From: Rhodococcus triatomae
GTDB lineage: Bacteria; Actinomycetota; Actinomycetes; Mycobacteriales; Mycobacteriaceae
Direction: 5' to 3'
Assembly: GCF_014217785.1 (NCBI RefSeq)
Contig: NZ_CP048814.1
Coordinates: 4,216,001 to 4,280,000 of the forward strand
DNA length: 64,000 bases
Under the pieces are notes generated by a model. It was not told where the DNA came from. It saw nothing but the letters and a program-made list of their open reading frames with translations, and did no database searches. The position numbers were made by a program, and so were the translations under genes. Shown here in pieces: positions 34,276 through 61,166 of the stretch; position 1 is the stretch's first letter, and each line of letters starts with the position of its first letter.

Positions 34276-34359
34276 CCTTGGAGGGCTTGATGTTCCCCCG
34301 GTTTTCCGGAGTTGGTTTGCTTGACTCTTGGTCACGAAGTCATCGAAGGAGACTTGTTC

Positions 34360-34659: not shown

Positions 34660-34667
34660 CCACGATC

Positions 34668-35205
34668 GCGAGCGAGGGATTGCCGGTGCAGGTCGCGTGC
34701 CGGCTGTTGGACGTCTCCGAGTCCGGTTTCTACCACTGGAAATCCCGCCCGCCCTCGCAACGAGCGATCCGCCACGCCTGGCTCACCGACCAGATCCGCG
34801 CGGTCCACGCCGCCTCCCGCGGCACCTACGGCGCCCCGCGGGTGCACGTCGAACTCACCCTCGGCCTCGGTATCGACGTCGGCTACAACCAGGTCGAACT
34901 ATTGATGGCACGCGCGGGAATCAAGGGCCTGCCCGGCGTCAAACGGGCCCGGCCACGGCATCAGACTCCGACCGCCGGTGACCTGGTCAACCGGGCATTC
35001 ACCCGGTCACAGCCGAACCAGCTGTGGGTCACCGACATCACCGAGCACTACACCCAGGAAGGAAAGGTCTACTGCGCGGTCGTGCTCGACACCCATTCAC
35101 GGCGGGTCGTCGGCTGGTCCATCGACTCAACCCAGACCGCGGCACTGGTCACCAACGCCCTCGGGATGGCGATATCGAACCGGTCGCCGGAGCCGGGCAC
35201 GATCA
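34668..35205 (+). pseudogene. IS3-family orfB, 5' part
   Basis: Encodes the N-terminal HTH_21 region and first half of the rve integrase core (PNQLWVTDITEHYTQEGKVY with the first catalytic Asp). Interrupted after GTI by the nested IS3 element. Reading continues at 36488 (IHSDHGVQ, carrying the second Asp) and again at 37962. Confidence 0.9.
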
Positions 35206-35246
35206 TGAGGGGCTGGAAAGTTCTCGGACAGCGAGATTTGGTTATC

Positions 35247-36127
35247 TCAAGCCGCCTGATTCTGCTGGAACCACGCGGACTCTACTTCGTTCGGCGTGTG
35301 GTAGTCAATTCCGGAGTGCAGACGAATCTGGTTGTACCGCAACTCGATATAGCGGGTGATATCCCTTCGAGCGTGTTCCCGGGTCGGGTATTGAGTGCGG
35401 TTCACGCGCTCATTCTTCAGGGTTCCATTGAAAGATTCCGCCCAGGCATTGTCATAGCAAGTTCCCGTGCGGCCTACCGATCGCACGATGCCGAGTTCTT
35501 GTGCCACTGAGGCGAATTCAGCGGAAAGGTACTGGCTGCCGCGGTCGCTGTGGAATATTGTTCCTTCGACCATGATGGGCAGGTTCCGGATGGCCATGCG
35601 CAGGGCGTCGGTCACCAATTCGGTGCGCATATGGTCCGCCATCGCGTACCCGATCACCTTCTTCGAATAGCAGTCGAGCACGGTGGCCAGATAAAGCCAC
35701 CCTTCCCAGGTACGGATATAGGTGATGTCACCGACGAGCTTGCGTCCCGGCGCGTCGGCGGTGAAGTCGCGTGCCACCAGGTCGGGCAGGTCGGCGGCGT
35801 CGCCGGCGATGGTGGTGACCGGTCGGAACGGCCGGGGCTGGCACGGCACCAACCCCAGCTCACGCATGATTTTCCGAACGGTGTCCGGATCGACCTGGGT
35901 TCCCCACCGGGCGAGCTGGGCGTGGACGCGGCGGTAACCGTAGGTGCTGTCGGAATGATCGAAGCAGAACCGGACTTCTGCTTCGAGGATTTCCCGCCAC
36001 CGCGCGGTGGCCGAGGGTTTCCGGCTTCGCCAGTCATAGAATCCTGAGCGGGAAACTCCTGCCCACCGGCACATATCGACCACAGCGTAATTGCCTTCTT
36101 CGGACGCGATGAACGCGTACTTGACCG
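35247..36127 (-). CDS. IS3-family OrfB (nested element)
   Basis: Integrase-core transposase. D (LVGDITYIRTWEGWLYLATV), D (FHSDRGSQYLS) and E (NAWAESFNGTLKNE) are present. The frame is open upstream into orfA (to 36320), as expected for a product made by -1 frameshifting from orfA. It probably has no independent start. Confidence 0.9.
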
Positions 36128-36427
36128 TTACCGGTGCTTCTTCGCGAAGAAGGCCACCGATTTTCCCAGGAAGCGGTTCTCGTCCTCCAGTTCCCGGACC
36201 CGCCGCTCCAATTCCTTCAAGCGGGCACGTTCCGGCAAAGACAACCCGGTATCCGCTGCCGAGTTCGTGCGCTGGAGCTGTTTCACCCAGTTCCGGATCG
36301 TCTGATCGGTTACCCCGCAATCGCGCGCGACATCGGCGATCGGCCGAGACTTCTCGAACACCTCACGTGCCGCCGTTTCCCGGAACTCCGGGCTGAACTG
36401 ACGCGACTTCTTCTGTGCCACAAACAA
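36128..36427 (-). CDS. IS3-family OrfA (nested element)
   Basis: 99 residues. HTH (ADVARDCGVTDQTIRNWVKQ) and a coiled coil (ERRVRELEDENRFLGKS). Precedes orfB on the minus strand with overlapping frames, the classic IS3 arrangement. Confidence 0.9.
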   Translation of the reverse strand: MFVAQKKSRQFSPEFRETAAREVFEKSRPIADVARDCGVTDQTIRNWVKQLQRTNSAADTGLSLPERARLKELERRVRELEDENRFLGKSVAFFAKKHR

Positions 36428-36513
36428 CTCCGTTCAGTCACCCAAATCTTACTTTGGGTCGCTGTCCGAGAAAGTTCCGGCACCTCATCATTCATTCCGA
36501 CCACGGCGTTCAA

Positions 36514-37961
36514 GGCGGATTCAACTGGTCGTTGCAACACTACTGTTGCAGCGATTGTAGATGCTCGGTCATTGCTTCGGCCGGTGTTCGCCATCCGAGG
36601 ACTTTTCTGGGGCGGTTGTTGAGCGTGTGGGCGACCGCCGAGAGCTCGTCAGGGCTCCATCTGGAGAGATCAGTTCCCTTTGGAAAGTACTGCCTGAGAA
36701 GCCCGTTCGTGTTCTCGTTCGTTCCTCGCTGCCATGGGCTATGAGGGTCGGCGAAGTACACAGGAATCTCTGTCTCACTGGTGAATACCGCGTGCCCTGA
36801 CATCTCCTTGCCACGGTCCCATGTCAGCGATTTCAACAACGACAGTGGAACCGGTTTCATCGCAGCCGACAGCGCCTTATTCATCGATTCGGCTCCGTAT
36901 CCGCTCAATGCCGGACCATTCTTAACCGGCGCGGCTGCACCCCAGCCCTGTTCGCGTGGCAAGTGGACGAGGACCGCATACCGTGTCGACCGTTCGACAA
37001 CAGTGCCGATCGCAGAGCGGGCCGTGCCGATGATGAGGTCGCCTTCCCAGTGGCCGGGCACCGACCGGTCATCAGCCTCAGGTGGTCGTTTGCTCAGCAA
37101 CGTGTGTGCACTCACGTGCGCCCAGGCGACACGTTTGGACCGCGCTCGGGGCATCCGCAACGATCGCCCAGTACGCAAGCACAAAATCAACTCCCGCTCG
37201 AGCGCGCCGCGACCTTCGATATATAACGCCTGGTAGATCGCTTCATGGCTGATACGCATCGACGGGTCGTCAGGGTAGTCGATCTCCAGGCGTTTGGAGA
37301 TCTGCTGCGGGCTCCACGCCTGCACCCAGCGACGATCACCGCGGTGCGGCTTGTTCCGTCCGGTCCAGGCGCCGGTTCGAGGGCCGGCCACAGCGACCCC
37401 GTCAGAGCTTGTGATCTGCCCGGCCAAGCGCTGCTGGACATAGTCGCGCAGGCGGGGGTTCGTCGCCAGCTTGGCTGCCTTCGGGCGCCGGGCGAACAAC
37501 TCCGCTTTCCACTGGGCAACCGACGCCCGGTAATCGAGCTTGCCACCCCTGGTCGCGGCATTACGCCGCAGTTCCCGCGAAATCGTCGAAGGGCTACGAC
37601 CCAGCACTGCAGCGATTTGCCGGACACCCTTGCCCTGGGCCCGCAGCAACGCGATCTCTTCCCGCTCGGCGAACGACAGGAACCTGCCCGACGGAGTGCT
37701 CCACGAATACGGCGACATCCCGCCAGCATCACGGAACCATCGCGTCCCCGCGACCGGTGAGACACCCACCGCCACAGCACATTCCGTGGGAAGATCACCT
37801 CGGGCGATCTCGTCCCAGAACGCACGCTCGACCACTCGCTGATGCCCGGGATGACCCGGTGACCGCATCGGAGCTCGCCCTGTAACCTCCCGAACCCAAT
37901 CTGACGGTCTTCCCACAACACCCTCCTGACCTCGGATGTTGCTTCCATCGGTTGAACCTGC
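36514..37961 (-). mobile_element. IS30-family element nested in the first IS3 element
   Basis: About 1448 bp. Imperfect inverted ends of some 25 bp (GCGGATTCAACTGG and, inverted, GCAGGTTCAACCGA) and a 4-bp target duplication TCAA (36510-36513 and 37962-37965). Removal rejoins host orfB as GVQ-FTSW in frame. Confidence 0.9.
36540..37916 (-). CDS. IS30-family transposase
   Basis: 458 residues. Two N-terminal HTH regions (second: GVRQIAAVLGRSPSTISREL) and an rve-type catalytic core with GHWEGDLIIG (first Asp), TWDRGKEMSGH (second Asp) and the Glu in NENTNGLLRQYFPKG. Intact. It is longer than the classic IS30 protein because of an N-terminal extension. Confidence 0.93.
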   Translation of the reverse strand: MGRPSDWVREVTGRAPMRSPGHPGHQRVVERAFWDEIARGDLPTECAVAVGVSPVAGTRWFRDAGGMSPYSWSTPSGRFLSFAEREEIALLRAQGKGVRQIAAVLGRSPSTISRELRRNAATRGGKLDYRASVAQWKAELFARRPKAAKLATNPRLRDYVQQRLAGQITSSDGVAVAGPRTGAWTGRNKPHRGDRRWVQAWSPQQISKRLEIDYPDDPSMRISHEAIYQALYIEGRGALERELILCLRTGRSLRMPRARSKRVAWAHVSAHTLLSKRPPEADDRSVPGHWEGDLIIGTARSAIGTVVERSTRYAVLVHLPREQGWGAAAPVKNGPALSGYGAESMNKALSAAMKPVPLSLLKSLTWDRGKEMSGHAVFTSETEIPVYFADPHSPWQRGTNENTNGLLRQYFPKGTDLSRWSPDELSAVAHTLNNRPRKVLGWRTPAEAMTEHLQSLQQ

Positions 37962-38250
37962 TCAATTCACTTCCTGGGCCTTCACCGACCGCGCCCGCAA
38001 GTCCGGGCTGGTGCCATCGATGGGGTCGATCGGCGACTGCTACGACAACGCCGTCATCGAATCATTCTGGGGCAGAATGCAAACCGAACTACTCAACCGG
38101 AAACGCTGGCGAACCCGGATCGAGCTGGCGAACGCGATTTTCGAGTACCTCGAGATCTTCCACAACCGTCAGCGGCGCCACTCGGCCCTCGGTATGCGGA
38201 CTCCGATCGAATACGAGATGATGCAACCACCTGTCCAACCCGTGGCCTGA
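37962..38250 (+). pseudogene. IS3-family orfB, 3' part
   Basis: Last 95 codons of the interrupted orfB: DCYDNAVIESFWGRMQTELL with the catalytic Glu, and the family C-terminus HNRQRRHSALGMRTP. Ends at TGA 38250. Confidence 0.9.
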
Positions 38251-38308
38251 AGTCCAGTATCCCGACTCCACGAAACCGGGGGAACATCATACCCTTGCCG
38301 ATGAGAAG

Positions 38309-39246: not shown

Positions 39247-40227
39247 TCAGTCCGGCTTCTCGGTGGCGCCCAGGGAGTCCGGCTGTGCGGGCTGCTCGGG
39301 CAGTGGTCGGCGGATGCTGAGGACCACCGAAACCGTCAGCACGACGACGATTACGGCCAGGCTGACCGGTGACGGGACCTCCGGCACCGCGGTGCTGATC
39401 GTCTTGTGGGCGGCTTGGAGCATGAGCTTGACGCCGATGAACGCGAGAATGATCGCCAGACCGGTCGACAGGTAGTGGAAGCGCTCGAGCATTCCGGAGA
39501 GCAGGAAGTACAGGGCGCGCAATCCGAGAATGGCGAAAGCGACGCTGGAGTACACGATCAGTGGTTCGCTACTCACCGCCAGCACCGCGGGCACGCTGTC
39601 GACGGCGAAGACGATATCGGCCGCCTCGATAGCGGCGACGACGATCAGCAGGGGTGTGGCGACCCATTTGCCGGCCGACCGGACGAAGAAGTGCGTGCCG
39701 GAGTATTCCTCCTGGACCGGGATGAACTTGCGTACCAGCCGTACCGCGGTGCTCTTGCCGGGATCGTAGGTCTCCTCGTCGTCCTTGAGAAGTTTGTAGG
39801 CGCTGTAGAGCAGGATCGCGGCGAAGGCGAACAGGACTACGGTGAACCGCTGCACCACGGCGATGCCGAGGAGCAGGAATATCGCGCGGAAGACCAGCGC
39901 GCCCAGCACGCCGAGGAACAGCACCCGGTGTTGGTATTCGCGGGGCACGTTGAAGTACCCGAAGATCAGGGCGAAGACGAAGAGATTGTCCACCGACAGG
40001 CTCTTCTCGAGCAGCCAGGCGGTGGTGAATTCCACCGAGGCGGTCGGGCCGACCGCGACCGCGACGAGCACTGCGAAGAGCAGCGACAGGCCGACCCAGA
40101 ACACACTCCAGCGGAGCGCTTCCCTGAAGCCGATCACGTGCGGGCCGCGATGCAGCACGAGATCGACGACGAGGCTGGCGGTCAAGATCGCGCCGAACAC
40201 CGCCCACAGCCAGGTGGGGACATCCAT
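39247..40227 (-). CDS. TerC/Alx-family membrane protein
   Basis: 326 residues, about nine transmembrane helices. TerC-family motifs are SVDNLFVFALIFGYFNVP and IEAADIVFAVDSVPAVLAVS, whose acidic residues in the membrane are thought to bind metal. Alx/TerC proteins export Mn2+ or metallate exported enzymes; old data link TerC to tellurite resistance. ATG 40227 gives MDVPTWLWAVFG. No other ter genes are present, so a Mn2+/Ca2+-type role is more likely than tellurite resistance. Confidence 0.92.
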   Translation of the reverse strand: MDVPTWLWAVFGAILTASLVVDLVLHRGPHVIGFREALRWSVFWVGLSLLFAVLVAVAVGPTASVEFTTAWLLEKSLSVDNLFVFALIFGYFNVPREYQHRVLFLGVLGALVFRAIFLLLGIAVVQRFTVVLFAFAAILLYSAYKLLKDDEETYDPGKSTAVRLVRKFIPVQEEYSGTHFFVRSAGKWVATPLLIVVAAIEAADIVFAVDSVPAVLAVSSEPLIVYSSVAFAILGLRALYFLLSGMLERFHYLSTGLAIILAFIGVKLMLQAAHKTISTAVPEVPSPVSLAVIVVVLTVSVVLSIRRPLPEQPAQPDSLGATEKPD

Positions 40228-40306
40228 AATCTGTTTCCTCGGTTCGTATCGATGGTGCGTGAGTTGCACTGCGCCTTGGGGCGGCGAGTGCGGGGCTCGA
40301 TGAGCG

Positions 40307-41164
40307 TTACGGGTTGCAGGAGGGGCAGCCCGCCGGGTCTGCGAGTTCGTGACGCTCGATTCTGGTGCGGTGTTCACAGCGGGCGCAGCCGTGGATGTCG
40401 GCGGCCGGCTGCGGGGTAGCGGTGAAGCAGAACTTGCAAGGGAGTCCGGGCTCGGTGGCGATGTGGCCGAACCCGGGGGCGTCGCAGCGCGCGCAGAGCC
40501 GGTCGAGGCGTTCGGCCAGTTCGGTGGCCAGTCGGGCGATGCTGCGCATGCGGGTGGGGTTGAGGTGGGCGCGCATGTCGGTTTCGATGCGGGCGCGCCC
40601 GTCCGACGACGCCGTCGCGCAGTGTGCGACGGCGTCGGCAAGTTCGGTGTTGGTGCGGATGCCTTTGTAGAGCGGGGCGTCGCCCCGGGGGGCGCTGTTG
40701 GGCCGCACGATCACCGCGTGGCTGCCGAACTGAGCGGTGCGCAGGAATTGTGCGGCTTGTTCGTCGAGGTGGTCGACGACGGTGTGGTCGAAGTTGGTGT
40801 CGCAGTCCAGGTGGTGCACGGTGAGCTCGAGGCCGAGATCGTCGTCGACGAAGGCGAGGATTTCCAGCCCGGCCGGGGCGAACCAGATACCGGGGTGGGG
40901 GCCGAAGGCGCCTTCGGAGGCCAGTCCACGCGGCAACCCCAGGGCCTGCATGGCGAGGCGGGCTTTCCTCAACGCGGTCTCGCGCGGTGGAGCCGGGCGT
41001 TCGATCTCCCCGGTGAAGGTGCCCAGTTCGTCGGTGTCGACGCCGGTGGCGACCTGCACCGTCAGGCCGGGGCGTTCGGCCAGGGCGGCGGCCAGTACCT
41101 GCTCCTTGCCGTGTTTGGTGGCCAGGGCGACGTCGCGGTCGCGGTAGGGGTGGGGTGCGCTCAT
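40307..41164 (-). CDS. DUF6671-like protein with C-terminal zinc-ribbon cysteines
   Basis: 285 residues. The N-terminal two thirds form a predicted alpha/beta domain (GKEQVLAAALAERPGL, FGPHPGIWFAPAGLEILAFV). The C-terminus has four cysteine pairs (CARCDAPG, CKFCF, CARCEHR, CPSCNP), likely two zinc ribbons. It resembles DUF6671-type proteins, whose function I do not know. Its ATG overlaps the winged-helix gene stop by four bases, making it the last gene of the minus-strand operon opposite dabBA. Confidence 0.65.
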   Translation of the reverse strand: MSAPHPYRDRDVALATKHGKEQVLAAALAERPGLTVQVATGVDTDELGTFTGEIERPAPPRETALRKARLAMQALGLPRGLASEGAFGPHPGIWFAPAGLEILAFVDDDLGLELTVHHLDCDTNFDHTVVDHLDEQAAQFLRTAQFGSHAVIVRPNSAPRGDAPLYKGIRTNTELADAVAHCATASSDGRARIETDMRAHLNPTRMRSIARLATELAERLDRLCARCDAPGFGHIATEPGLPCKFCFTATPQPAADIHGCARCEHRTRIERHELADPAGCPSCNP

Positions 41165-41472
41165 GCGCTGCGGCCGGGTGCGTTCTTCGGCTCGGCGGTC
41201 AGGACGCTGAGGATTTCCCCGACCGCGTGGTCGCGTTCGAGGGGGTGCCGCAGCGGCAGTTCTTGGTTCAATCGGTAGCGGTTGCGGCGCCCGTCGCGGA
41301 CGCGGTCGAGGTAGCCCGCCTGTTCCAGTTCGGCCACGATGCGCTGGGCCGCGCGTTCGGTGATGCCGACCGCGTCGGCGACGTCGCGTAGCCGCATCCC
41401 GGGGTCTTGCGCGATGCACAGCAGCACGTGCGCGTGGTTGGTGAGAAACGTCCAGTCCGCCACCGTGATCAC
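41161..41472 (-). CDS. Small winged-helix regulator
   Basis: 103-residue MarR/ArsR-like winged helix: ADWTFLTNHAHVLLCIAQDP, LRDVADAVGITERAAQRIVA (recognition helix) and a wing DGRRNRYRLN. GTG 41472 follows TTGTAGG directly, with no clear Shine-Dalgarno, like the paralogue at 43570, so both may be leaderless. It lies 8 bp after the Sua5-like gene. It is a close paralogue of the N-terminal domain of the 43570 gene and of the decayed copy at 49630, so all may read the same operator. Confidence 0.85.
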   Translation of the reverse strand: MITVADWTFLTNHAHVLLCIAQDPGMRLRDVADAVGITERAAQRIVAELEQAGYLDRVRDGRRNRYRLNQELPLRHPLERDHAVGEILSVLTAEPKNAPGRSA

Positions 41473-41480
41473 CCTACAAT

Positions 41481-42659
41481 CTACGATCCCTGATTGCCAT
41501 TTTGTCTTACGTGAATTGAGTTGCGCATGTGCTTGGTCGCGCTCGCGCGACGTCGTTGACACGGTTCGCCTCCCTTCTCGGCGGCTGTGCTGGTCGACGC
41601 GGTTGCTGCGGGGCGAGGAGCGGAGGCGCGGGTGAGGCGGTCCGCGATGGCCAGGCCGACACCCGCGCGGGTGGGGAGCGAGGCGATGACGACCTCGCAG
41701 TCGTGCCGATCGAATTCGCGCAGAAGTCGGTACAGATCGCGGGCGTAGTCGCCGATGGCGGTCGGTACCTCGATCACCAGCACGTTGCCGGTGAAGGTCG
41801 ATGCCGCACTCGTGGGGGATCGCAGGACTCCGACTCGCCGGCCGTGCGATTGCTGCCGGTGGGCCTCGGCGAGGACGTCGCTTTCCTCGACCAGGATCAC
41901 GCGCGCTCGGGGGGCGTAATGCGAAGGATGCTGCCCGGGCGCGCGGTGCCCGCGCGATGGTGTGGTCGTGCGGATCGGTCGGCCCAGCGCCTGGGCGAGA
42001 TCGTCGACCCCGATCGCGCCCGGGCGCAGCAGGGTCGGCTCGTCGCCGGTGACGTCGATGATGGTGGATTCGATCCCGACCGGGCAGGTCCCGCCGTCGA
42101 GAATGAGGTCGACGACGGGACCGAGTTCGTCGGCGACGTGGTCGGCACTGGTGCAGCTGACGGCGCCGAAGCGGTTGGCCGACGGCGCCGCGATCGCCCC
42201 TCCGAATGCGGTGAGCAACTGCAGCGCGACGCGATGCTGCGGGACCCGCACCGCGACGGTGTCGCATCCGCCGGTGACAACGGGCGGAACGCGGGGACCG
42301 CGCGGCAGGACCAGGGTGAGCGGGCCCGGCCAGAACCACTCGGCGAGCACCCGGGCGGGACCCGATATCTCGGTGACCCAGTCGCCGAGCTGGCAGGGAT
42401 CGGCGAGATGCACGATCAGTGGGTGCGTTTCGGGTCGCCGCTTGACCTCGAAGACCCGGCGGACCGCCTCGGCGTTCTCGGCGTCGGCGCCGAGCCCGTA
42501 CACGGTCTCGGTCGGGAAGGCGACCAGACCGCCGCGGTGCAGAATCTCCGCGGCGTGGCGGATGTTCCGCGCCTGGGCCGCCGCCGCAGGAGCGGCGGCG
42601 ACCGTGTCGGAGAGTGTCTCAGGGGCGTCGGCTTTCGTCGATCGGGCTGAGTGCGTCAT
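41481..42659 (-). CDS. Sua5/YrdC-type L-threonylcarbamoyl-AMP synthase paralogue
   Basis: 392 residues. YrdC domain about 28-210 (GGLVAFPTETVYGLGADAEN, KRRPETHPLIVH, SANRFGAVSCTSADHV), the linker PGQHPSHYAPRA typical of Sua5, and a C-terminal Sua5 domain. The family makes threonylcarbamoyl-AMP from threonine, ATP and bicarbonate for tRNA t6A. Its ATG overlaps the upstream regulator stop by four bases. The last 30 residues look like translated promoter DNA. It is presumably a second copy besides the chromosomal gene. Linkage to a bicarbonate system is notable because bicarbonate is its substrate. Confidence 0.88.
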   Translation of the reverse strand: MTHSARSTKADAPETLSDTVAAAPAAAAQARNIRHAAEILHRGGLVAFPTETVYGLGADAENAEAVRRVFEVKRRPETHPLIVHLADPCQLGDWVTEISGPARVLAEWFWPGPLTLVLPRGPRVPPVVTGGCDTVAVRVPQHRVALQLLTAFGGAIAAPSANRFGAVSCTSADHVADELGPVVDLILDGGTCPVGIESTIIDVTGDEPTLLRPGAIGVDDLAQALGRPIRTTTPSRGHRAPGQHPSHYAPRARVILVEESDVLAEAHRQQSHGRRVGVLRSPTSAASTFTGNVLVIEVPTAIGDYARDLYRLLREFDRHDCEVVIASLPTRAGVGLAIADRLTRASAPRPAATASTSTAAEKGGEPCQRRRASATKHMRNSIHVRQNGNQGS

Positions 42660-43570
42660 CGGTCTATCTCGGAGTAGGTGATCAGCCCCTGGATGCCCTG
42701 GTCGTCGTCGACGACGAACCACTGCTCGGCCACCAGCCGCGGATGACGGGCGCGCAGATCGGCGACCTCGGCGGCCATGAATGTCGAGGGGCGGCTCGCG
42801 GCGAAGCTGGCGTAGAAGAGGCCGCCCGGGCGTGACCCTCCCGGTTCGGAGGTCGCCGCGACGAGAGCGTCGAGGACATGCCGACGGGCTTGGTCGGTGG
42901 TGTCGGTCGCCCGTAGCAGGGGGCCGTCGATCCAGCACAGCGTCCACAGCCCCGACAGCGACACCGATCTGCGGACTCCGACCATGGCCTCGACCATGGC
43001 CGTTCGTGGGGCCTCGCCCTGGGCCGCGGGGGTGGCCGATTCGTAGTGCAGCCATTCGGGCAGTCCCTCCTCGAGGTCGCCGCGAACCCAGATGCCCAGC
43101 AGTGTGCTGTCGTGCCGACTCGCCGGCGAGAGACTTTCGCGCAGGTGGTTGACGTAGTCGTTGACCGCGGACACGGCCGCGTCCAGATCATCGACGCTGC
43201 GCACCAGCAGCATCATCCACGCCGAGGTCGTGCCGACCAGCCGAGGCTCCAGTCGGGCGACCTCGGCCACGATTTCGTCGTCTCGGGTGTGGTGTTCGAG
43301 CAGGTCGAGGACCTCGCCCACGGCGACGTCCCGGTCGGTCCGGGGCCGGAAAGGCAGCTTGCCGTTGAGGCGATAGCGATCGGTCAGACCGTCGCGGTTT
43401 CGCTCAAGGTACCCCGCGCGTTCGAGTTCGGTGATTATGCGCCGGGTCGCCCGCTCTGTGATGCCGACCTCCTCGGCGATCTGGGGCAGCCGCATCTGAT
43501 CGTCACGGGCGATGCACAGCAGCACCCGAGCGTGGTTGGTGAGAAACGTCCAGTCCGTCACGCCTCGCAC
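42656..43570 (-). CDS. Winged-helix regulator with large unknown C-terminal domain
   Basis: 304 residues. Residues 1-80 are a winged helix nearly the same as the 41472 gene product (TDWTFLTNHARVLLCIARDD, QIAEEVGITERATRRII). Residues 95-304 form a domain I do not recognise, with LVRSVDDLDAAVSAVNDYVN, SGLWTLCWIDGPLLRATDTT and FMAAEVADLRARHP. It may sense a ligand. It is first gene of the operon divergent from dabB, with 219 bp between start codons, so it is the likely regulator of both operons. Confidence 0.82.
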   Translation of the reverse strand: MRGVTDWTFLTNHARVLLCIARDDQMRLPQIAEEVGITERATRRIITELERAGYLERNRDGLTDRYRLNGKLPFRPRTDRDVAVGEVLDLLEHHTRDDEIVAEVARLEPRLVGTTSAWMMLLVRSVDDLDAAVSAVNDYVNHLRESLSPASRHDSTLLGIWVRGDLEEGLPEWLHYESATPAAQGEAPRTAMVEAMVGVRRSVSLSGLWTLCWIDGPLLRATDTTDQARRHVLDALVAATSEPGGSRPGGLFYASFAASRPSTFMAAEVADLRARHPRLVAEQWFVVDDDQGIQGLITYSEIDR

Positions 43571-43789
43571 GCTACAACATGCGACAGTGATTTAACACAT
43601 TCAAATACGTGTTTTCGATTTCGTGTATCTTGAATCGCGTTATGGCGTGATCGACAGCGCGCGATCGAGTTCCCGGAGGTTACTCGCGGCAATCGGGTGG
43701 CAACCGGGCCCGTGTTCGGGTGGTCATCGGGAACGGGTGAACGCGCGGTGGTGAGTGATCAGCGGCTTGTCCGCTGGGAGGAGAGGTCA
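43571..43789. promoter_or_regulatory. Divergent promoter region of the carbon-accumulation locus
   Basis: An AT-rich stretch (43589-43645), unusual in this DNA, contains an imperfect dyad: TCAAATACGTG, 10 bases, CGTGTATCTTGA. This is the expected place for the operators of the winged-helix regulators and for both promoters. An in-frame GTG for dabB exists at 43697 inside this region, but the start at 43790 has the far better ribosome site. Confidence 0.55.
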
Positions 43790-45382
43790 GTGAGTGTGCT
43801 GCTGCTGATATCGGTGCTGTCGCCGGCGATGACCGGTCTGCTTTTGCTCGCGGGAGGGCGCACCGGCCGTCGCTGGGGAGTCGCGGTGACGGCGTTCGCT
43901 GCGGTGTCGGCTGTGGTGGTCGCGTGGTCGGTGGCGGTGCGCGGCCCGGTCGACGCGGTCGTGACCATCGGCTCGGGTGGGTCGGTGATGGCCGGGTTCT
44001 ACGCGGATCGGGTGTCGGTGGTGTTGCTGCTGCTGGTGCTGGGTGTCAGTGCCGTGGTGCAGGGCTTCGCGACGCGGTACCTGCGCGGGGACGCCCGGGC
44101 GGACCGTTTCGTCGCGGCGACCGGGTTGCTCACCACGGCCACCGCGGCGATGGTCACCGCGGCCACGCTGATCGGTATGGCTGTGGCCTGGTCGGCGATC
44201 GGCCTCGGGTTGTGGTGGCTGTTGCGGGTCTATCGCGCCGATGCGTGGGTGCCGGTGGCGGTCACACGCACCGCACGCATGGTGCTCGTCGGCGATATCG
44301 CGCTGTGGACGGGGGTGATCGTGGCCACCGTGCAGTGGGGGAACGTCGACCTGCGCGCTCTCGAGCTGCCGACGACGACGTCGGCGCCGACGGGGCCGCT
44401 CGTCGCGGGAGCCCTCGTGGTCGCGGCGGTGGCACGGTCCGCGCTGGTCCCGATGGCGGGGTGGCTTCCGGCCACCGTCGCCGCGCCGACACCACTGTCG
44501 GCGCTGCTGCACGCCGGCATCGTCAACGGGGGCGGGGTGCTGATGCTGCGGTTGCACCCGATGATCGACTCCTACGCCGCGGTGATGGGTCTGGCCTTCG
44601 TCGCCGGCGCGCTCACCGCCGTCTACGGCACCGCGCTCATGCTGACCCGACCCGATGTGAAGTCCGCACTGGCCTACTCCACCGTCGGACAGATGGGATT
44701 CATGGTGATGACATGCGCTCTCGGCGCCTACTCCGCCGCGCTGTTCCACCTGGTCGCACACGGCATGTACAAGGCCGCTCTCTTCCTGGGGTCCGGGTCC
44801 GCGGTCGGCGACCATCTCGCAGAGCGCACCGCGCCACCGCGACCACTGGGCAGTGCGGGCGCGCGGCGCGCGTTCGGAGCGCTCGCGCTTGTGGTGCCCG
44901 CAGTGGCGCTCGCTGGTGCGGTGTGGCTGTGGGGATCGGTGTTCGGGCTCGCTCATTCCGGGACGGTGTTGCTGCTGGCGTTCGCGTGGGTGACGGGCAC
45001 ACACCTGGTGTGGGGCTGGTCCCGGCGCGTGAGCAGGCCCGGTCCTGCCTGTGTGTTCATCGCGGTGCTCGTCGCGGTGATGGTCGCCTACCTCGGCGCG
45101 CTGTCGGTCTTCAGCGCCTTCACCGGACCCGCGCTGCGGGCCGAGGGTCCGGCGGTGTTGGGCGCGTGGACGCTGATCCCGGTCTTCGCGGTGATCGCGG
45201 TGCTCACCCTCGCGCGGGTCACCACCGTCCCCGCGCTGGCCTCACTGCACAAGACCTTGTATGTGGCGTGTCTGAGTCTCGGCGATCTCGGTCCGCGCGC
45301 TCGCAGGACCTCGTTCCCCGGTGGCGCGCGCCGCACAGCGCCCGCCAGATCGTTCGTTCCCGCTGTGGTAGGAGAATCATGA
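43790..45382 (+). CDS. dabB: DabB: NuoL/Mrp-like proton channel subunit of the DAB bicarbonate system
   Basis: 530-residue polytopic membrane protein of the proton-conducting antiporter family (NuoL/MrpA/DabB). About thirteen helices. Core motif PMAGWLPATVAAPTPLSALL with HAGIVNGGGVLML, and STVGQMGFMVMTCALG, correspond to the proton-path helices of NuoL. Next to dabA this fits DabB, which couples proton motive force to CO2 hydration by DabA. GTG 43790 follows GGGAGGAGAGG closely. An earlier in-frame GTG (43697) would add 31 unlikely residues. Stop overlaps the dabA start (ATGA). Confidence 0.93.
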   Translation: MSVLLLISVLSPAMTGLLLLAGGRTGRRWGVAVTAFAAVSAVVVAWSVAVRGPVDAVVTIGSGGSVMAGFYADRVSVVLLLLVLGVSAVVQGFATRYLRGDARADRFVAATGLLTTATAAMVTAATLIGMAVAWSAIGLGLWWLLRVYRADAWVPVAVTRTARMVLVGDIALWTGVIVATVQWGNVDLRALELPTTTSAPTGPLVAGALVVAAVARSALVPMAGWLPATVAAPTPLSALLHAGIVNGGGVLMLRLHPMIDSYAAVMGLAFVAGALTAVYGTALMLTRPDVKSALAYSTVGQMGFMVMTCALGAYSAALFHLVAHGMYKAALFLGSGSAVGDHLAERTAPPRPLGSAGARRAFGALALVVPAVALAGAVWLWGSVFGLAHSGTVLLLAFAWVTGTHLVWGWSRRVSRPGPACVFIAVLVAVMVAYLGALSVFSAFTGPALRAEGPAVLGAWTLIPVFAVIAVLTLARVTTVPALASLHKTLYVACLSLGDLGPRARRTSFPGGARRTAPARSFVPAVVGES

Positions 45383-47946
45383 CAGTCACCGTCGATACAG
45401 TCACCGTCGATCAGAGCGCGGTCAGCCGCGCACAGCTGCGAGCCGAGATCAGCGTGGCCGCCCGCGTTCTCACTCCTGTGTGGCCGTTGAGCAGTTTCAT
45501 CGCGGTCAACCCGCTCGGCGGGCTGGAACATCGCCGCTTCGACGCCGCCCTCACCATCGCCAGTGATCTCTACGGTGCCCGCGGCACCCTCGGCGAGGCC
45601 GAGTTCCGTGCCGCCCACACCACCGGCCGCATCACGACGGCCGATCTGAGCGAGGCTCTCGAGCGCCGATTCCCCGACGCCGTCACCGCGGCACCGGTCG
45701 AGATCGGCGGTCGCGCCCACACCGCCGTCGATATCCTGCTGGCCGACCTTGTCCACGGATCGATCCCGTCACCCCACGCTCGTCGGCTTCTCACTCTGAG
45801 CGAACGCTTCTGCGCACGCACCGCGGCAGCGATCGACGCCCAAACCGTCAAATGGTGCTCGGCGTATCTGGATCTCTGCCAGGCCAGCTGGGTGTTGCCC
45901 GGCCGCGACCGAGGCTTCTACCGGGCCTGGGCCGATCTGGCGCCACGCGATCCCCGGCTCCCGGCGGCGGCTCGCCGCGCGCTGCGCCACCTCCCCCCTG
46001 ATCCCGCCGAGGCTGTCTCGCAAGCGCTGGCTGTGCTCGGTGTCGGATCCGGCGGCGAACGGATCGCCTACCTGCGCGCGCATCTGACGCGGCTGCCGGG
46101 CTGGGCCAGTCACATCCTGTGGCGCAGCAACACACCCGGAGCCGGAATCGACCTGGTCGACTATCTCGCCGTCCGGCTCAGTTACGAGGCGCAGCTGCTC
46201 GACACCACCCAACTACCCGCACCGACGGCACCTGTTCCCGCTCGTCCATCGGATACGGCCACACACCGCGCCCGCCGCGCGGCACAGGCATTGGGCACGA
46301 TCGATCTCGATGCCGCCGCCGAGGCGTCGATCAGCGGGATTCTCGAACGCATGCCTGTCGATTCGCGCCCCCTGGTGTGGCTCGACGCCTATGAGACGCA
46401 CTATCGCCGCGGTCTGCTCGAGGAACTGGACCACCCCGCCCCCGCCCCGACCCGCGCCCGCGCCGACGCGCAATTGGTGTTGTGCATCGATCCCCGCTCG
46501 GAAGGACTGCGTCGGCATCTCGAGGCGCTGGGCGACTACGACACGTTCGGATTCGCGGGGTTCTTCGCTGTGGCCAGCCGCATCCACGCCCTCGCCAACG
46601 GTGACCCCACCATCGCGGCGCCTGCTCTGGTGACACCCCACATCGACCTGTACGAACAACCCGATCCGACGGCGCCCGCTGCGGCGCAGCGCCACATCGC
46701 CGGACTGCACACCCTCGCCGCCACCACCGACGCGGTCCACACCGCCAAAGCCGACCTGGCGGCGCCATTCGCCCTCGCCGAGATCCTCGGCTGGGCGAGC
46801 GGACCCGTGGCCGCCGCGAAAACCATCGCCCCCCGCCGCTACCGGCGCTGGCGCACCCGCACCCGGGCACGGATCGCGCCCCCCGCCCGCACCGTGATCG
46901 ACACCGCTGGCGCGCTCGGTCTCGACCAGCGCGTGCAGATCGCCGAAACCGCCCTCACGGTCATGGGACTCACTCGCGGTTTCGCTCGACTGGTGGTGTT
47001 CTGCGGACACGGCGCCAACACCGAGAACAACCCCCTCCACTCGGCGTTGGCCTGTGGCGCCTGCGGTGGCAACCCCGGCGGGCCGAACGCTCGCGCCGCC
47101 GTGGACATCCTCAACGACACCGAGGTCCGCGGCAAGCTCCTCAGCCGCGGCATCGACATACCCGACGACAGCTGGTTCGTCGCCGCCGAACACGACACCA
47201 CCAGCGACCACGTCACCATTCTCGATCGCCACCGGGTACCCGACACCCACCGCCCCGACCTCGATCGCCTCACCTCCGACCTGGCCGAAGCCGGACGCCG
47301 CCTCGCCGCCGAACGATCCCCCCTGCTTCCCGGCGCACCAGACCGACCGAGCCCGCACGCGGCGGCCCGCCACGCCCAGACCCGCAGTGCGGACTGGGCG
47401 CAGGTATATCCCGAATGGGGCCTGGCCGGCAACGCCGCGTTCATCATCGGACCACGCACTATGTCCGCGGGCATCGACCTACGCCGCCGCTGCTTCCTGC
47501 ACTCCTACAACCCCGACGACGACCCGACCGCGACCGCGCTGGAAACGATCCTCACCGCACCGGTCATCGTCGCGCAGTGGATCAACTGCCAGTACTACTT
47601 CTCCACCGTCGCCCCCGACACCTTCGGCGCAGGCACCAAGACCACTCACAACGTCGTCGGCGGAATCGGCGTTCTCACCGGCCCGGCCGGCGACCTGCGA
47701 ACCGGCCTGCCCTGGCAATCGGTCGCGGTCGGGGACCGCCTCGTACACGAACCGATGCGCCTGCTCGTCCTCGCCTACGCACCACACCAGCGAATCGACA
47801 CCATTCTGGCCCGCAACCCCAAACTTCGCGATCTCGTCGACAACCACTGGATCACCCTGCTCGCCCGCACCGGCCCGTCCTCGCCCTGGCACCACCGCAC
47901 CCGCAGCGGATGGACCCTGTATCCCACGAACGGAGCACAGCCATGA
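45379..47946 (+). CDS. dabA: DabA: DUF2309 vectorial carbonic anhydrase-like subunit
   Basis: 855-residue DUF2309 protein. The beta-carbonic-anhydrase-like zinc site described for Halothiobacillus DabA (Cys, Asp, His, Cys) is intact: C369 and D371 in LCIDPRS, H544 in FCGHGANTENNP, and C559 in ALACGACGG. The spacings match that protein closely. Near the start, SSFIAVNPLGGLEH is conserved family sequence. DabA-DabB is proposed to convert CO2 to trapped bicarbonate, driven by the cation gradient. It overlaps dabB and the PII-like gene by four bases on each side, so the three are translationally coupled. Confidence 0.95.
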   Translation: MTVTVDTVTVDQSAVSRAQLRAEISVAARVLTPVWPLSSFIAVNPLGGLEHRRFDAALTIASDLYGARGTLGEAEFRAAHTTGRITTADLSEALERRFPDAVTAAPVEIGGRAHTAVDILLADLVHGSIPSPHARRLLTLSERFCARTAAAIDAQTVKWCSAYLDLCQASWVLPGRDRGFYRAWADLAPRDPRLPAAARRALRHLPPDPAEAVSQALAVLGVGSGGERIAYLRAHLTRLPGWASHILWRSNTPGAGIDLVDYLAVRLSYEAQLLDTTQLPAPTAPVPARPSDTATHRARRAAQALGTIDLDAAAEASISGILERMPVDSRPLVWLDAYETHYRRGLLEELDHPAPAPTRARADAQLVLCIDPRSEGLRRHLEALGDYDTFGFAGFFAVASRIHALANGDPTIAAPALVTPHIDLYEQPDPTAPAAAQRHIAGLHTLAATTDAVHTAKADLAAPFALAEILGWASGPVAAAKTIAPRRYRRWRTRTRARIAPPARTVIDTAGALGLDQRVQIAETALTVMGLTRGFARLVVFCGHGANTENNPLHSALACGACGGNPGGPNARAAVDILNDTEVRGKLLSRGIDIPDDSWFVAAEHDTTSDHVTILDRHRVPDTHRPDLDRLTSDLAEAGRRLAAERSPLLPGAPDRPSPHAAARHAQTRSADWAQVYPEWGLAGNAAFIIGPRTMSAGIDLRRRCFLHSYNPDDDPTATALETILTAPVIVAQWINCQYYFSTVAPDTFGAGTKTTHNVVGGIGVLTGPAGDLRTGLPWQSVAVGDRLVHEPMRLLVLAYAPHQRIDTILARNPKLRDLVDNHWITLLARTGPSSPWHHRTRSGWTLYPTNGAQP

Positions 47947-48266
47947 CCCGCGCCGACCTCACGAGGATGACCAGAATCGAAGTCATCGTCCCGGGAACCG
48001 CCGCATCCGAGGTCCGCCGCCTCATCGAGCATTCCGGCGCCACCGGATACACCGCCATCTCCGGAGTCTCCGGCCTGGGCCACAACGGCTACCACCAAGG
48101 AGGACTGCTGTTCAACGAACAGGACACCCTCGCACTGCTCATCACCGTCATCCCCGATCACCGCGCCGATGCCCTCATCGCCGGCCTCCGCCCCCTGCTC
48201 GAGAACGCCTCCGGAGTCATGTTCGTCACCGACACCTACGTCAGCCGACCCGACTACTTCACGTAA
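47943..48266 (+). CDS. PII-like signalling protein coupled to dabA
   Basis: 107 residues with a PII-like ferredoxin fold: RIEVIVPGTAASEVRRLIEH, a T-loop-like segment GLGHNGYHQGGLLFNEQD, and TVIPDHRADALIAGLRPLLE. It lacks the Tyr uridylylation context of GlnB. PII-like proteins (CPII, SbtB) next to bicarbonate transporters bind adenine nucleotides and, for CPII, bicarbonate, and tune the transporter. The four-base overlap with dabA argues for the same role here. Confidence 0.82.
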   Translation: MTRADLTRMTRIEVIVPGTAASEVRRLIEHSGATGYTAISGVSGLGHNGYHQGGLLFNEQDTLALLITVIPDHRADALIAGLRPLLENASGVMFVTDTYVSRPDYFT

Positions 48267-50544: not shown

Positions 50545-51924
50545 GGGTCTGTAAGTTCTCCGGTGTAAGTCCTGGGAACGATGGATGCTGTTGTGACTGA
50601 AGAGAAGTCGGAAGACGATGCAGCCGGGTCGGCTGCCGCGTCGATGGACGAGCAGATCCGGCGGTGGGCAGCCGAAGCCCGCCGTGACGGGCTGCAGCTG
50701 GTCGGTGAGGGCGGGCTGCTGGCCCGGATGACGAAGCTGGTGGTGGAATCCGCCCTCGACGGCGAGATGGACGACCACCTCGGCTATAGCAAACACGATC
50801 CCGCCGGCCGGGACGGCGGGAACTCGCGCAACGGAAAGCGGACCAAGACCGTCGAAACCGAGGCCGGGCCGGTGGAGATCGCGGTGCCCCGGGACCGCGA
50901 CGCCAGCTTCGAACCGCAGATGGTGAAGAAGCGTCAGCGCAGGCTCGGCGGTGTGGAGAACATCGTGATCTCGCTGTCGGCCAAGGGACTCACGACCGGG
51001 GAGATCTCGGCGCACCTGCGTGAGGTCTACGGCGCCGAGGTATCGAAACAAACCATTTCCACCATCACCGACCGGGTTATGGACGCCATGGCCGACTGGC
51101 AGAGCCGGCCCCTGGACCCGGTGTATCCCGTGCTGTTCCTGGACTGCGTGAACGTGAAGATCAGAGACGGCAACGTCGCGAACCGCCCGATCTATGTGGC
51201 GATGGGCGTGACCGTGGACGGCACCCGCGACATCCTGGGGTTGTGGGCCGGCGAGCACGGCGACGGTGAAGGAGCCAAATACTGGCTGCGTGTGCTGGCG
51301 GAGCTGAAGAACCGTGGCATGGCCGACGTCTGCATCGTCGTCTGCGACGGGCTCAAAGGCCTTCCCGACGCCATCGCCCAGGTATGGCCGCAGGCGCTGG
51401 TCCAGGGCTGCGTCGTGCACCTTCTGCGCAATTCGTTCTCCTACGCCAGCCGCAAGGACTGGCCCGAGCTGGCCAAAGACCTCAAACCGGTCTACACCGC
51501 GCCGTCGGAGTCCGCGGCGCTGGATCGCTTCGCCGAGTTCAGCGACAAATGGGAGAAACGATATCCCGCGATCGTGCGGTTATGGACCAACGCATGGGCC
51601 GAATTCGTGCCGTTCCTGCAGTTCGACCAAGCGATCAGACAGGTCATCTACACCACCAACGCTATCGAGTCGGTCAACGCCCGCATCCGCCGCGCGGTCA
51701 AAGCCCGCGGGCACTTCCCGACCGAGGCCGCGGCGCTGAAATGCGTCTACATGGCGATCATGAGCCTGGACCCTACCGGCACCGCCCGGCAACGCTGGTC
51801 CAACCGCTGGAAAGCCGCCCTGAACGCGTTCGAGATCACCTTCGACGGACGCCTGTCCGCCGCCCGCACGTAACCGAATCACCCGAGGAAGGAGACGGAC
51901 TTACACCTGAAACTGGACAGACCC
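50545..51924 (+). mobile_element. IS256-family insertion sequence
   Basis: 1380 bp with imperfect 28-bp inverted repeats beginning GGGTCTGT and ending GGTGTAAGTCC. The flanking octamers CTTCAGGA and GCTCAGGA share the last six bases, close to the 8-bp target duplication expected for this family. Confidence 0.9.
50581..51873 (+). CDS. IS256-family transposase
   Basis: 430-residue mutator-type transposase. D (VLFLDCVNVKIRDG), D (VVCDGLKGLPDAIAQVWPQA) and E (TTNAIESVNARIRRAVKARG) of the catalytic triad are present and the frame is intact. ATG 50581 is used. Confidence 0.96.
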   Translation: MDAVVTEEKSEDDAAGSAAASMDEQIRRWAAEARRDGLQLVGEGGLLARMTKLVVESALDGEMDDHLGYSKHDPAGRDGGNSRNGKRTKTVETEAGPVEIAVPRDRDASFEPQMVKKRQRRLGGVENIVISLSAKGLTTGEISAHLREVYGAEVSKQTISTITDRVMDAMADWQSRPLDPVYPVLFLDCVNVKIRDGNVANRPIYVAMGVTVDGTRDILGLWAGEHGDGEGAKYWLRVLAELKNRGMADVCIVVCDGLKGLPDAIAQVWPQALVQGCVVHLLRNSFSYASRKDWPELAKDLKPVYTAPSESAALDRFAEFSDKWEKRYPAIVRLWTNAWAEFVPFLQFDQAIRQVIYTTNAIESVNARIRRAVKARGHFPTEAAALKCVYMAIMSLDPTGTARQRWSNRWKAALNAFEITFDGRLSAART

Positions 51925-52047
51925 GCTCAGGAAAGGTGTGCGGGAGCGGGAAGGTGAGAATTTGCGCGCCGTCGGTGGAATGTCCAGTTAGCCTCGATTT
52001 TTCGTGAGGGTGTCGGCTGGCCTGAGTGGGTTTGAGTTGCTGTTTTC

Positions 52048-52081
52048 GCTGGTCGGGGCGGCGTGAGCCGCCCCGACCAGC
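52048..52081. terminator. GC-rich hairpin after the IS1380-like transposase gene
   Basis: Perfect 15-bp stem, GCTGGTCGGGGCGGC with its complement, and a GTGA loop, 70 bp beyond the transposase stop. Probably a terminator. Confidence 0.65.
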
Positions 52082-52150
52082 GGGTGGGCTGCCGGGTTCC
52101 ACAAGTCCGGAGGGTGTCTTTCTTGCTTCGTAGGGGCGGGTTTTTGCTGG

Positions 52151-53575
52151 TCAGGGTGCTGCGAGGCGGGCGAAAGCGGTGAGAGCGAGACCGGTCCACG
52201 GGTTGTGAGCGGGTAGGCGCAGGTGGACCCGGCGGGCGTGACGGGCCAGGCGTGCGGGGATCGAGAACAGTCGCAGTCGTAGTGTTTTCGGTTCCCAGCG
52301 GCGTGCGGAATCCGGTCCGAAGGCCAGTATTTGCGTCCAGGCGGTCAGGTCCATGGCGAGTGCGACGATCGCTGTCCAGATGCGGTTGGCGTTGTAGCTG
52401 TGGAACGGAAGGTTGCGCAGGCCGGTGTCTTTCGCGGCGCGGATGCGGTCCTCGCAGCGGGCGCGGCGACGGTGCCGTAACTCCAATTCCGGCAGCGGCC
52501 CTGTCGTGGTGTTGGTGACGAACGCGGTCAGCCGCAGCCCGTCGTGGTCGGTGAACCGCAACTGCGCGCCGGGGTGCGGGCGTTCCTTGCGCACCACCAG
52601 CCGCATCCCGCGCGGCCAACCCGACAGGTCCAGCAGGCCGGTGACCTCGGTAACCCAGGCGCCGGGCCGGGTCTTCCCGCCGGCATCGAGGGCGGGGATC
52701 CAGTCGGTGTCGATGAGGTTGTCGAGGGCAGCGACGATGTCGTCGGTGAGAACGAAACCGATCGAATACTGAACGCGGCGGCGGTGGCAGTAGTCGAGGA
52801 ATTCGTGGGTGCCGCCGCCGGAATCGGCGCGGACCAGGACTTTGCGACCGATCCGCCACCGGTCGACCCGCGGTAGCTGCGTCAACGCGTCGGCCAGTAG
52901 TTGTTTGTGGTCGTGCGCGGTATTGGAGCCGGCGTTTCCCGGGCGCAGCATGACCGCGGCCGGTTCCCCGGTGCCGGTCTCGCCGTGGTCGACGAACGCC
53001 CGCAACGGGTGAAACCCGAAACCGCGTTTGAAGGTCGGGGCCGCGTGTTCCTTGTCCGAGTGGGCCTCGGTCAAGGTGGCATCGAGATCGATCGTCAACG
53101 GCGCCGCCGCGTCGACCCCGTAATCCGGGGCGGCCGTTCCCGCCAATTCCCACGCCCGTGCTCGCGCCTGCGCGCGAGCGGAAGCAATGGCCGCCAACGC
53201 TTTGCGCGAATCACCAGCCAACACTGTGATCAGCCGCGATACCGTCGGGTCCGAGGCCACCGCACCGAACACACAGGGCTCGGCCCGCAGCAGCGCCAGG
53301 TCTGACACGCAGTCCCCGCCGAGTGCGAGCATCACCGCCAGATCACACACGACCTTGCCCGGATCATGCACCGCACCCGAGCTACGCCACGGCGACAGCC
53401 TCTCGGACAAACCCCTGCTCAACCCGGTCTTCTCCACGGTCCGTAGCAGCAATCCCGCCCCGGCCTGCGACACGACCGGCGACCCGCCGACCTCGATTTT
53501 CAGCGACGGATACCACGACATAGACTCACTCACCGAAAAGGTGCTCCTGAAACTGTTCGATTCGACCTTAGACAA
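52151..53575 (-). CDS. IS1380-family transposase
   Basis: 474 residues. Family motifs include LDLDATLT-type first Asp (TIDLDATLTEAHSDKEHA), VLVRADSGGGTHEFLDYC with the second Asp, and RRRARCEDRIRAAKDTGLRN with the Glu. Intact. The most likely start is ATG 53575, though the ATG/GTG choices near 53520 are also possible. Confidence 0.93.
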   Translation of the reverse strand: MSKVESNSFRSTFSVSESMSWYPSLKIEVGGSPVVSQAGAGLLLRTVEKTGLSRGLSERLSPWRSSGAVHDPGKVVCDLAVMLALGGDCVSDLALLRAEPCVFGAVASDPTVSRLITVLAGDSRKALAAIASARAQARARAWELAGTAAPDYGVDAAAPLTIDLDATLTEAHSDKEHAAPTFKRGFGFHPLRAFVDHGETGTGEPAAVMLRPGNAGSNTAHDHKQLLADALTQLPRVDRWRIGRKVLVRADSGGGTHEFLDYCHRRRVQYSIGFVLTDDIVAALDNLIDTDWIPALDAGGKTRPGAWVTEVTGLLDLSGWPRGMRLVVRKERPHPGAQLRFTDHDGLRLTAFVTNTTTGPLPELELRHRRRARCEDRIRAAKDTGLRNLPFHSYNANRIWTAIVALAMDLTAWTQILAFGPDSARRWEPKTLRLRLFSIPARLARHARRVHLRLPAHNPWTGLALTAFARLAAP

Positions 53576-61082: not shown

Positions 61083-61166
61083 CCGGATTTGGGCCGAGCA
61101 TCGTGCCCATCCATCCGAAACCAACTGCTACACAACCCATCTCGACAACCGAGGGAAGTCAGATAC

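Follow-up and report, generated by a model that had tools for sequence, protein, structure and literature searches.

The stretch analysed here, termed the window, comprises 64,000 nucleotides of the Rhodococcus triatomae genome (contig NZ_CP048814.1, a single contig of 4.77 Mb, positions 4,216,001 to 4,280,000) and contains a DAB inorganic-carbon module, consisting of two divergent gene groups, as cargo of a Tn3-family transposon. The forward strand encodes DabB, a NuoL-like membrane subunit (43790-45382, +; PF00361/PF00662, PDB entry 9rd0_B with E 9e-74), DabA, a β-carbonic-anhydrase-like subunit (45379-47946, +; PF10070 with 808 bits, PDB entry 9rd0_A with E 1e-102), and a CPII-type PII-like protein (47943-48266, +). 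The reverse strand encodes wHTH1, a long winged-helix regulator with a C-terminal domain of no assigned fold (42656-43570, −), Sua5, a two-domain L-threonylcarbamoyladenylate synthase (41481-42659, −; PF01300, PF03481 and TIGR00057), wHTH2, a short winged-helix regulator assigned by profile matches and locus comparison, relatives of which flank DAB and SbtA genes (41161-41475, −), and a DUF6671 protein (40307-41164, −; PF20376, E 4e-41). The gap between wHTH1 and DabB measures 219 bp and includes a candidate promoter/operator (43602-43631, no strand assigned).

An earlier reading of the DNA, made from the sequence alone (the sequence-only reading), described dabB, dabA and the PII-like gene as joined by four-base overlaps, opposite an operon with two winged-helix regulators, a Sua5 paralogue and a DUF6671-like gene. 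The genes and coordinates are as described, and ATGA overlaps are present between dabB and dabA (45379-45382), dabA and the PII-like gene (47943-47946), wHTH1 and Sua5 (42656-42659), and wHTH2 and DUF6671 (41161-41164); the Sua5 and wHTH2 genes do not overlap. The dabA/PII overlap is borne out given the upstream start of the PII-like gene, since the start annotated in a matching Nocardia plasmid, described below, lies 24 nt later and would abolish it. In the same annotation wHTH1 begins at ~43561 and wHTH2, the start of which is uncertain, at ~41463. On its left side the unit delimited by the sequence-only reading may be too short: a gene for a TerC/Alx-family metal homeostasis membrane protein (39247-40230, −; TIGR03718, 377.7 bits against a cut-off of 246.4) possibly belongs to the module, because 11 of 45 well-flanked DAB loci have TerC no more than 6 kb from DabA; two of these loci are from the window's own mobile group.

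The transposon extends over 35,895 bp (25312-61206, no strand assigned). It is bounded by terminal inverted repeats of 47 nt each, located at 25312-25358 (+) and 61160-61206 (−) and 89% complementary, and carries the transposase gene tnpA (25807-28875, +), an open reading frame annotated as 'Tn3 family transposase' in the matching plasmid. The same element is present on plasmid NZ_CP026745.1 of Nocardia cyriacigeorgica MDA3349 (142,547 bp, typed as mobilizable), where it spans the record start. Stretches of 13.7, 8.2 and 9.9 kb (31.8 of the 35.9 kb) are 99.98-99.99% identical between window and plasmid, and a 3.7-kb insertion-sequence stretch is 98.5% identical. The outer ends of the plasmid copy coincide with those of the window, and ATTGA 5-mers on both sides form a perfect target duplication, whereas the 5-mers flanking the window element, GGGAA and GGAAG, represent an imperfect duplication at best. 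The plasmid copy thus shows all three Tn3 characteristics (tnpA, terminal repeats and 5-bp duplication), and the window copy the transposase gene and the repeats. Since a Nocardia plasmid contains this unit with identical ends and an exact target duplication, the module is mobile, and its assignment to a Tn3-family transposon in the sequence-only reading is both correct and now delimited at either end. The element differs from other Tn3-family transposons in that its cargo includes an inorganic-carbon system; fetB, chrA and chrB genes are also carried, according to the plasmid annotation. Literature searches on mobile DAB and on the plasmid strain returned no title or abstract opening that describes this element.

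Among 28 genomes of the host genus, the module DNA is present in the window's genome alone; the largest match in the other 27 covers 263 bases of wHTH2 at 75% identity (L158, G006:C1:4402663-4402925), and the remaining matches are each shorter than 100 bases. Stretches of 99% identity occur in contigs of N. carnea and N. neocaledoniensis, and stretches of 87-92% identity in N. salmonicida, N. puris and one Nocardia metagenome-assembled genome. A 10.5-kb contig of Promicromonospora umidemergens, presumably of another order than the host, matches over 7,978 bases with 88.8% DNA identity. TerC of N. puris is adjoined by a tnpA-like stretch of 57% identity. A FastTree phylogeny of 97 DabA sequences unites the window, N. 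carnea, N. puris, Promicromonospora, N. salmonicida and the metagenome-assembled genome in one clade (support 0.99), the sister of which is a single other family member (L078). The Sua5-containing gene order is found in the window and in L002, L003, L004, L006, L007 (which ends inside DabA) and L087; contig ends truncate the neighbourhoods of L005 and L019. The arrangement is therefore not a single occurrence, which the sequence-only reading had named as a finding that would speak against it: a search elsewhere yields six further carriers, N. carnea, N. salmonicida, N. puris, the Nocardia metagenome-assembled genome, the Promicromonospora contig and the N. cyriacigeorgica plasmid.

The window pump resembles DAB2 of Halothiobacillus neapolitanus (PDB entries 9rd0, 9rd8 and 9rd9) in both subunits, including the Cys-His-Cys zinc site, the Asp-Arg dyad, the finger Glu and, in DabB, the NuoL-like proton residues. 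DabA was aligned for 76 locus sequences, the window and the DabA2 reference, with the window and its near-copies counted among 77 sequences. Residues C351, D353, R355, A376, E444, H524, C539, H585, D590 and L658 of DabA2 are identical in 77/77, and the S356 position is kept in 75/77; the window equivalents C369, D371, R373, E468, H544, C559, H605 and D610 are each found in 77/77. The sequence-only reading had counted C369, D371, H544 and C559 as four zinc ligands. All four are present, but D371 corresponds to the catalytic Asp and three ligands remain, because the zinc ligands in the solved structure of DAB2 are Cys351, Cys539 and His524, and Asp353 pairs with Arg355 to stabilise the zinc-bound water (PMC13144422). 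A loss of the finger glutamate, suggested by a pairwise alignment that placed Ala at E444, was rejected on the basis of the multiple alignment (E468 in 77/77). In Mycobacterium helveticum the DabA match (L075 8001-10665) is split in two, possibly by a frameshift or a sequencing error.

For DabB the PDB was searched with a family profile, and DabB2 (9rd0_B) is the best match. Residues S237, H241, K291, S297, H320, H324 and K328 show no variation across 20 sequences and align, as counted by hand in the profile alignment, to DabB2 residues at which alanine substitutions impair activity (PMC13144422). K235 of DabB2 is replaced by R216 in the window protein, and the position of the complex I Glu (Ile151 in DabB2) by Ser135. 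Judged by its sequence, the window pump would be a working DAB. It differs from DAB2 in its occurrence in an actinobacterium and on a transposon, in the overlap of dabB and dabA followed by a CPII gene, and in its winged-helix and DUF6671 partners. A restriction of DAB to chemoautotrophs and a few heterotrophic pathogens, as assumed in the sequence-only reading, understates its range: DAB is reported from at least 14 bacterial phyla and Euryarchaeota, heterotrophs included (PMC13144422; the spread of DAB/MpsAB is also covered in PMC8567241, PMC10880623 and PMC6458275), and DabA is found here in 30 of 374 genomes of the class. The same reading's term CO2 fixation overstates the function, because what DAB provides is bicarbonate.

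A profile of 24 PII-like neighbours retrieves the CPII structures 5d4n and 5d4l first from the PDB, with E 5e-24 over 106 residues at nearly full length; canonical PII proteins follow with partial matches at E of about 1e-3. As judged from these matches, the window protein is closer to CPII (PDB entries 5d4l, 5d4n, 5d4o, 5d4p, 5drk and 5ds7) than to canonical PII. CPII is, by the title of its paper as given in a citing reference entry, carboxysome-associated and regulated by bicarbonate; the window protein differs in adjoining a DAB pump, and comparable ligand binding would be expected from its family.

To describe the neighbourhood, loci were picked by similarity to the window DabA, and neighbours were called by tblastn (E 1e-5) at set distances of 1-6.5 kb from DabA. 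Among the 45 of 76 loci with at least 4 kb upstream and at least 3 kb downstream of DabA, DabB is present in 45, PII in 44, a related winged-helix gene in 40, a β-carbonic-anhydrase-like gene in 37, DUF6671 in 17, TerC in 11 and Sua5 in two. A further set of 32 loci (29 from the class sample and three from a search of relatives) contains 24 that pass the same flank filter, with DabB in 23, PII in 10, winged-helix genes in 10, DUF6671 in six, carbonic anhydrase in six, TerC in three and Sua5 in none. Part of the actinobacterial DABs thus commonly have the core gene set, and Sua5 is restricted to the mobile group, being seen in the two well-flanked loci and also in L002, L004, L007 and L087. A 23.7-kb mobilizable plasmid of Mycolicibacterium aubagnense from mine sediment (NZ_CP122998.1, L088) carries winged-helix, TerC, CBS and DUF6671 genes divergent to dabB, dabA, PII and carbonic anhydrase genes. 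At a sister DAB locus (L154 11813-12637) a long wHTH1-like regulator with 41% identity is encoded, and the 19 kb fetched there contain no match to Sua5 or DUF6671.

DUF6671 follows inorganic-carbon uptake rather than DabA itself. It is present in seven of the 374 class genomes, six of which also contain DabA, each pair on the same contig and less than 5 kb apart (Fisher p 1e-6, with related genomes counted as independent in this test and the next). In the seventh (G175, L153), which lacks a match to DabA, the DUF6671 and winged-helix genes lie divergent to SbtA (PF05982, E 4e-99). In the family of G175, DUF6671 occurs in 15 of 201 genomes; SbtA adjoins it in 10 and DabA in three, DabA lies on a separate contig in G491, and G557 contains a DUF6671 fragment only, with neither transporter. 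DabA was sought in these 15 genomes and found in four. SbtA is present in 30 of the 201 genomes (29 above the cut-off), and its association with DUF6671 has p 2e-6. A winged-helix gene related to those of the module accompanies eight of the 10 SbtA loci; the remaining two, where SbtA is truncated by the contig end, yielded no such gene. Twelve plasmid records with DUF6671 extend this pattern: DabA lies within a few kb in seven and ~12 kb away in a Methylocystis plasmid, an annotated sodium-dependent bicarbonate permease adjoins DUF6671 in three Arthrobacter plasmids, and a Pseudomonas plasmid has TerC and pyrC, with no DabA within the 26 kb read. A confinement of DUF6671 to DAB was considered and rejected in view of the SbtA loci. 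Like DAB, SbtA lies divergent to DUF6671 in the small actinobacterial genomes and the Arthrobacter plasmids, but it is an unrelated Na+-dependent bicarbonate carrier. The regulator pair of winged-helix protein and DUF6671 appears to serve inorganic-carbon uptake more generally. The word DUF6671 was not found in the literature searched.

The winged-helix regulators of the module share 57 identical residues among 88 aligned N-terminal residues, and wHTH1 and wHTH2 therefore look like a duplication with Sua5 between the copies. A recurring promoter design is observed in the gaps between winged-helix genes and DabB or SbtA: an 18-bp spacer, itself an imperfect inverted repeat and in many cases of the form CAyG-N10-CryG, separates a TTGACA-like −35 element from a −10 element rich in TA. 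Examples are the sbtA promoter of L153 (TTGACT CATGAATTATAGTTCATG TATTAT) and the dab promoter of L009 (TTGACA CCTGAATTGCAATGCATG TATCAA). A repressor bound at the spacer repeat would exclude RNA polymerase. The repeat was assessed in 45 regions (37 DAB and eight SbtA) with 100 shuffles per region; copies of the window region (L083, L087), loci with a truncated SbtA and no winged-helix gene (L185, L189) and DAB loci gathered later were left out. In 23 of the 45 regions the spacer repeat reaches p<=0.05 (16/37 DAB and 7/8 SbtA) against shuffles that keep base composition only and with kinship uncorrected. In a count of gapped dyads the top dyads recur in seven regions, near-identical ones being counted in, compared with at most two in shuffles. 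The window version at 43602-43631, with spacer CGTGTTTTCGATTTCGTG and −10 element TATCTT, is a degenerate repeat placed by eye in analogy with L006 and other loci, and is a candidate only; the window region, scored without shuffles, reaches 13 at a different site.

The DUF6671 sequences themselves (22 members) contain eight invariant Cys residues in the C-terminal half, in a zinc-ribbon-like arrangement, and a conserved N-terminal block. A sequence search of the PDB gives a single match with E 0.42, and Pfam gives no ITPase match among the 22 members and weak zinc-ribbon matches in some. An hhalign comparison of ~53 DUF6671 with 30 HAM1/ITPase sequences yields a probability of 64% at E 7e-5 (76% at E 2e-5 for the N-terminal half). 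Among the controls, 40 column shuffles give at most 0.5%, reversed profiles 0.1% and five other families at most 1%. A kinship of the N-domain to HAM1/ITPase is a lead rather than a classification.

The cargo Sua5 resembles the Sua5/TsaC L-threonylcarbamoyladenylate synthases (PDB entries 6f87 and 2eqa) in its two-domain architecture (Sua5_yciO_yrdC and Sua5_C) and in its KxR and SxN motifs, as aligned to 6f87. It differs in being a second copy, on a mobile element: the host contains another, shorter PF01300 copy at 540181 in an open frame of 226 residues. Substrates of Sua5/TsaC are threonine, ATP and bicarbonate/CO2, and the presence of both variants in one organism is described as rare and unstable (PMC10321239). 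For human YRDC, the reported Km for bicarbonate is 13 mM when TC-AMP is formed and 31 mM when t6A is made together with OSGEPL1; without CO2 and bicarbonate the t6A content of some mitochondrial tRNAs drops, while that of a cytoplasmic tRNA is maintained (PMC5951830). In view of these data, it would be plausible for an additional Sua5 to accompany a bicarbonate pump.

Other enzymes recur near DUF6671 on plasmids, with ilvD in four, pyrC in two and cysD in four of the 12 stretches, a count based on few plasmids and without a background rate; cysD is not explained by CO2. A role of PyrC and IlvD as CO2-independent replacements was considered and rejected, as the lysine that is carbamylated is kept in 2/2 PyrC (KYYPA, KLYPA) and 4/4 IlvD (CDK) sequences. 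The genes are at most extra copies. For dihydroorotase, abstracts report a carbamylated lysine. In a single stretch of a Methylocystis rosea plasmid (NZ_CP034087.1 276000-306000, L245), DAB genes, bioD, pyrC, ilvD and DUF6671 are accompanied by genes for crotonyl-CoA carboxylase, the acyl-CoA carboxylase β subunit and two formylmethanofuran dehydrogenase A proteins; many of these enzymes use or need CO2. In Arthrobacter sp. U41, two separate conjugative plasmids (L236, L237) each encode a sodium-dependent bicarbonate permease together with a small 'transcriptional regulator' and DUF6671, after which comes ilvD.

The locus thus combines a known kind of pump with a new setting and with a regulator pair that appears to serve carbon uptake. 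The module is likely to be a self-regulated, transposon-borne inorganic-carbon supply system and, taken as a whole, a portable low-CO2 survival regulon. DabB would pass protons and DabA would use their energy to hydrate CO2 in one direction, yielding intracellular bicarbonate, as the residue agreement with DAB2 suggests. The CPII-type protein may sense the adenylate/bicarbonate state and tune the pump, in line with its family, while the winged-helix protein would repress the dab promoter through the spacer repeat when carbon is sufficient. DUF6671, by its association, is a partner dedicated to inorganic-carbon uptake systems, and it is probably a co-regulator responding to a nucleotide or to carbon state. 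The additional copy of Sua5, an enzyme that consumes bicarbonate, would protect tRNA t6A synthesis when bicarbonate is scarce. A broader proposal is quite possible though tentative, namely that an unnamed bacterial low-CO2 regulon exists, in which the inorganic-carbon importer at hand, DAB or SbtA, is controlled via a common operator by a winged-helix repressor together with DUF6671 (a zinc-ribbon protein that possibly contains a nucleotide-pyrophosphatase-like domain), and which recruits extra copies of enzymes that consume or need CO2 or bicarbonate (Sua5 here, pyrC, ilvD, bioD and carboxylases on other plasmids). As transposon cargo, such a regulon would spread low-CO2 fitness horizontally, and t6A modification of tRNA would be one of the CO2-limited steps that it protects.

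Several observations weigh against this interpretation. The repeat on which the repression step depends is seen in relatives but not in the window's own group, where none of six regions passes the operator test (p 0.20 for L006, about 0.24 for L002, L004 and L005, and >0.5 for L003 and L007), and the shuffles of that test preserve base composition alone. The confinement of Sua5 to the mobile group implies that its link to DAB may rest on one acquisition, and the Promicromonospora copy fills its whole contig, so that assembly contamination is possible. The treatment of related genomes as independent bears on the DUF6671 associations, and 20 of the 30 SbtA genomes of the sampled family have no detected DUF6671. 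Finally, the need for the pump in air is not obvious, because the host has two β-carbonic anhydrase matches. One of these (L085, G000:C1:2619719-2620219) lies in a 788-residue open frame and is perhaps fused to a transporter domain.

The scarcity of two partners raises the question of whether dabBA and PII alone matter, with Sua5 and DUF6671 as passengers without a carbon link. Sua5 is limited to two of the 45 well-flanked loci and DUF6671 is missing from 28 of them, but DUF6671 is tied to two unrelated carbon-uptake systems (on the 12 plasmids, DabA is close in seven and ~12 kb away in one, and SbtA is present in three), and Sua5 keeps its operon place and motifs; a passenger role is rather unlikely. 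The main rival is a role of the island in alkaline-pH or metal stress, in which DAB and TerC/Alx would act in balancing pH or Mn, with low CO2 as a secondary matter. It draws on the 11 loci with TerC near DAB, on the fetB, chrA and chrB cargo, and on the Pseudomonas plasmid, where TerC adjoins DUF6671 and an nhaR gene lies in the stretch without DabA. Bicarbonate, not metals, is nevertheless what SbtA, CPII, Sua5 and the β-carbonic-anhydrase-like gene near DAB (37/45 loci, none in the window's group) have in common, and a primary pH or metal role is unlikely, although it partly overlaps with the low-CO2 reading, because high pH also lowers CO2. Instead of hydrating CO2 at the expense of protons, the pump itself might act as an MpsAB-type symporter of Na+ and bicarbonate, as such a function has been proposed for the homologue MpsAB (PMC13144422) and the coupling ion cannot be fixed from sequence. 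This is quite improbable in view of the retained DAB2 zinc site, Asp-Arg dyad, finger Glu (E468) and proton-path residues, in a comparison made with DAB2 and not with MpsAB.

If the reading as a carbon-supply regulon is correct, CO2 supply in ordinary heterotrophs would be a regulated and horizontally selected trait, and DUF6671 would gain a role. With this locus it could also be tested directly whether t6A modification of bacterial tRNA is limited by bicarbonate, as reported for human mitochondria. The mobility of the module suggests that low-CO2 living can pass between bacteria as a single unit.

Some further features were noted at these loci. The Pseudomonas hygromyciniae plasmid (NZ_CP070507.1 224000-249868, L244) has the order TerC, DUF6671 and pyrC, together with a murF-like fragment and a Tn3-family transposase. 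At many DAB loci (L018, L022, L025, L042 and others) genes that we take to be glnA-like (18 loci) and glnE-like (14 loci) lie near DAB. Within the transposon, insertion-sequence transposases of the IS3, IS30 and IS256 types, by the plasmid annotation, occupy 34278-38300 and 50581-53575; the open reading frame at 52151-53575 is presumably a further transposase. The plasmid copy is ~2.4 kb longer at window position 53009/53010 (L087 13735-16144), and the extra segment overlaps an annotated reverse transcriptase/maturase and is perhaps a group II intron.

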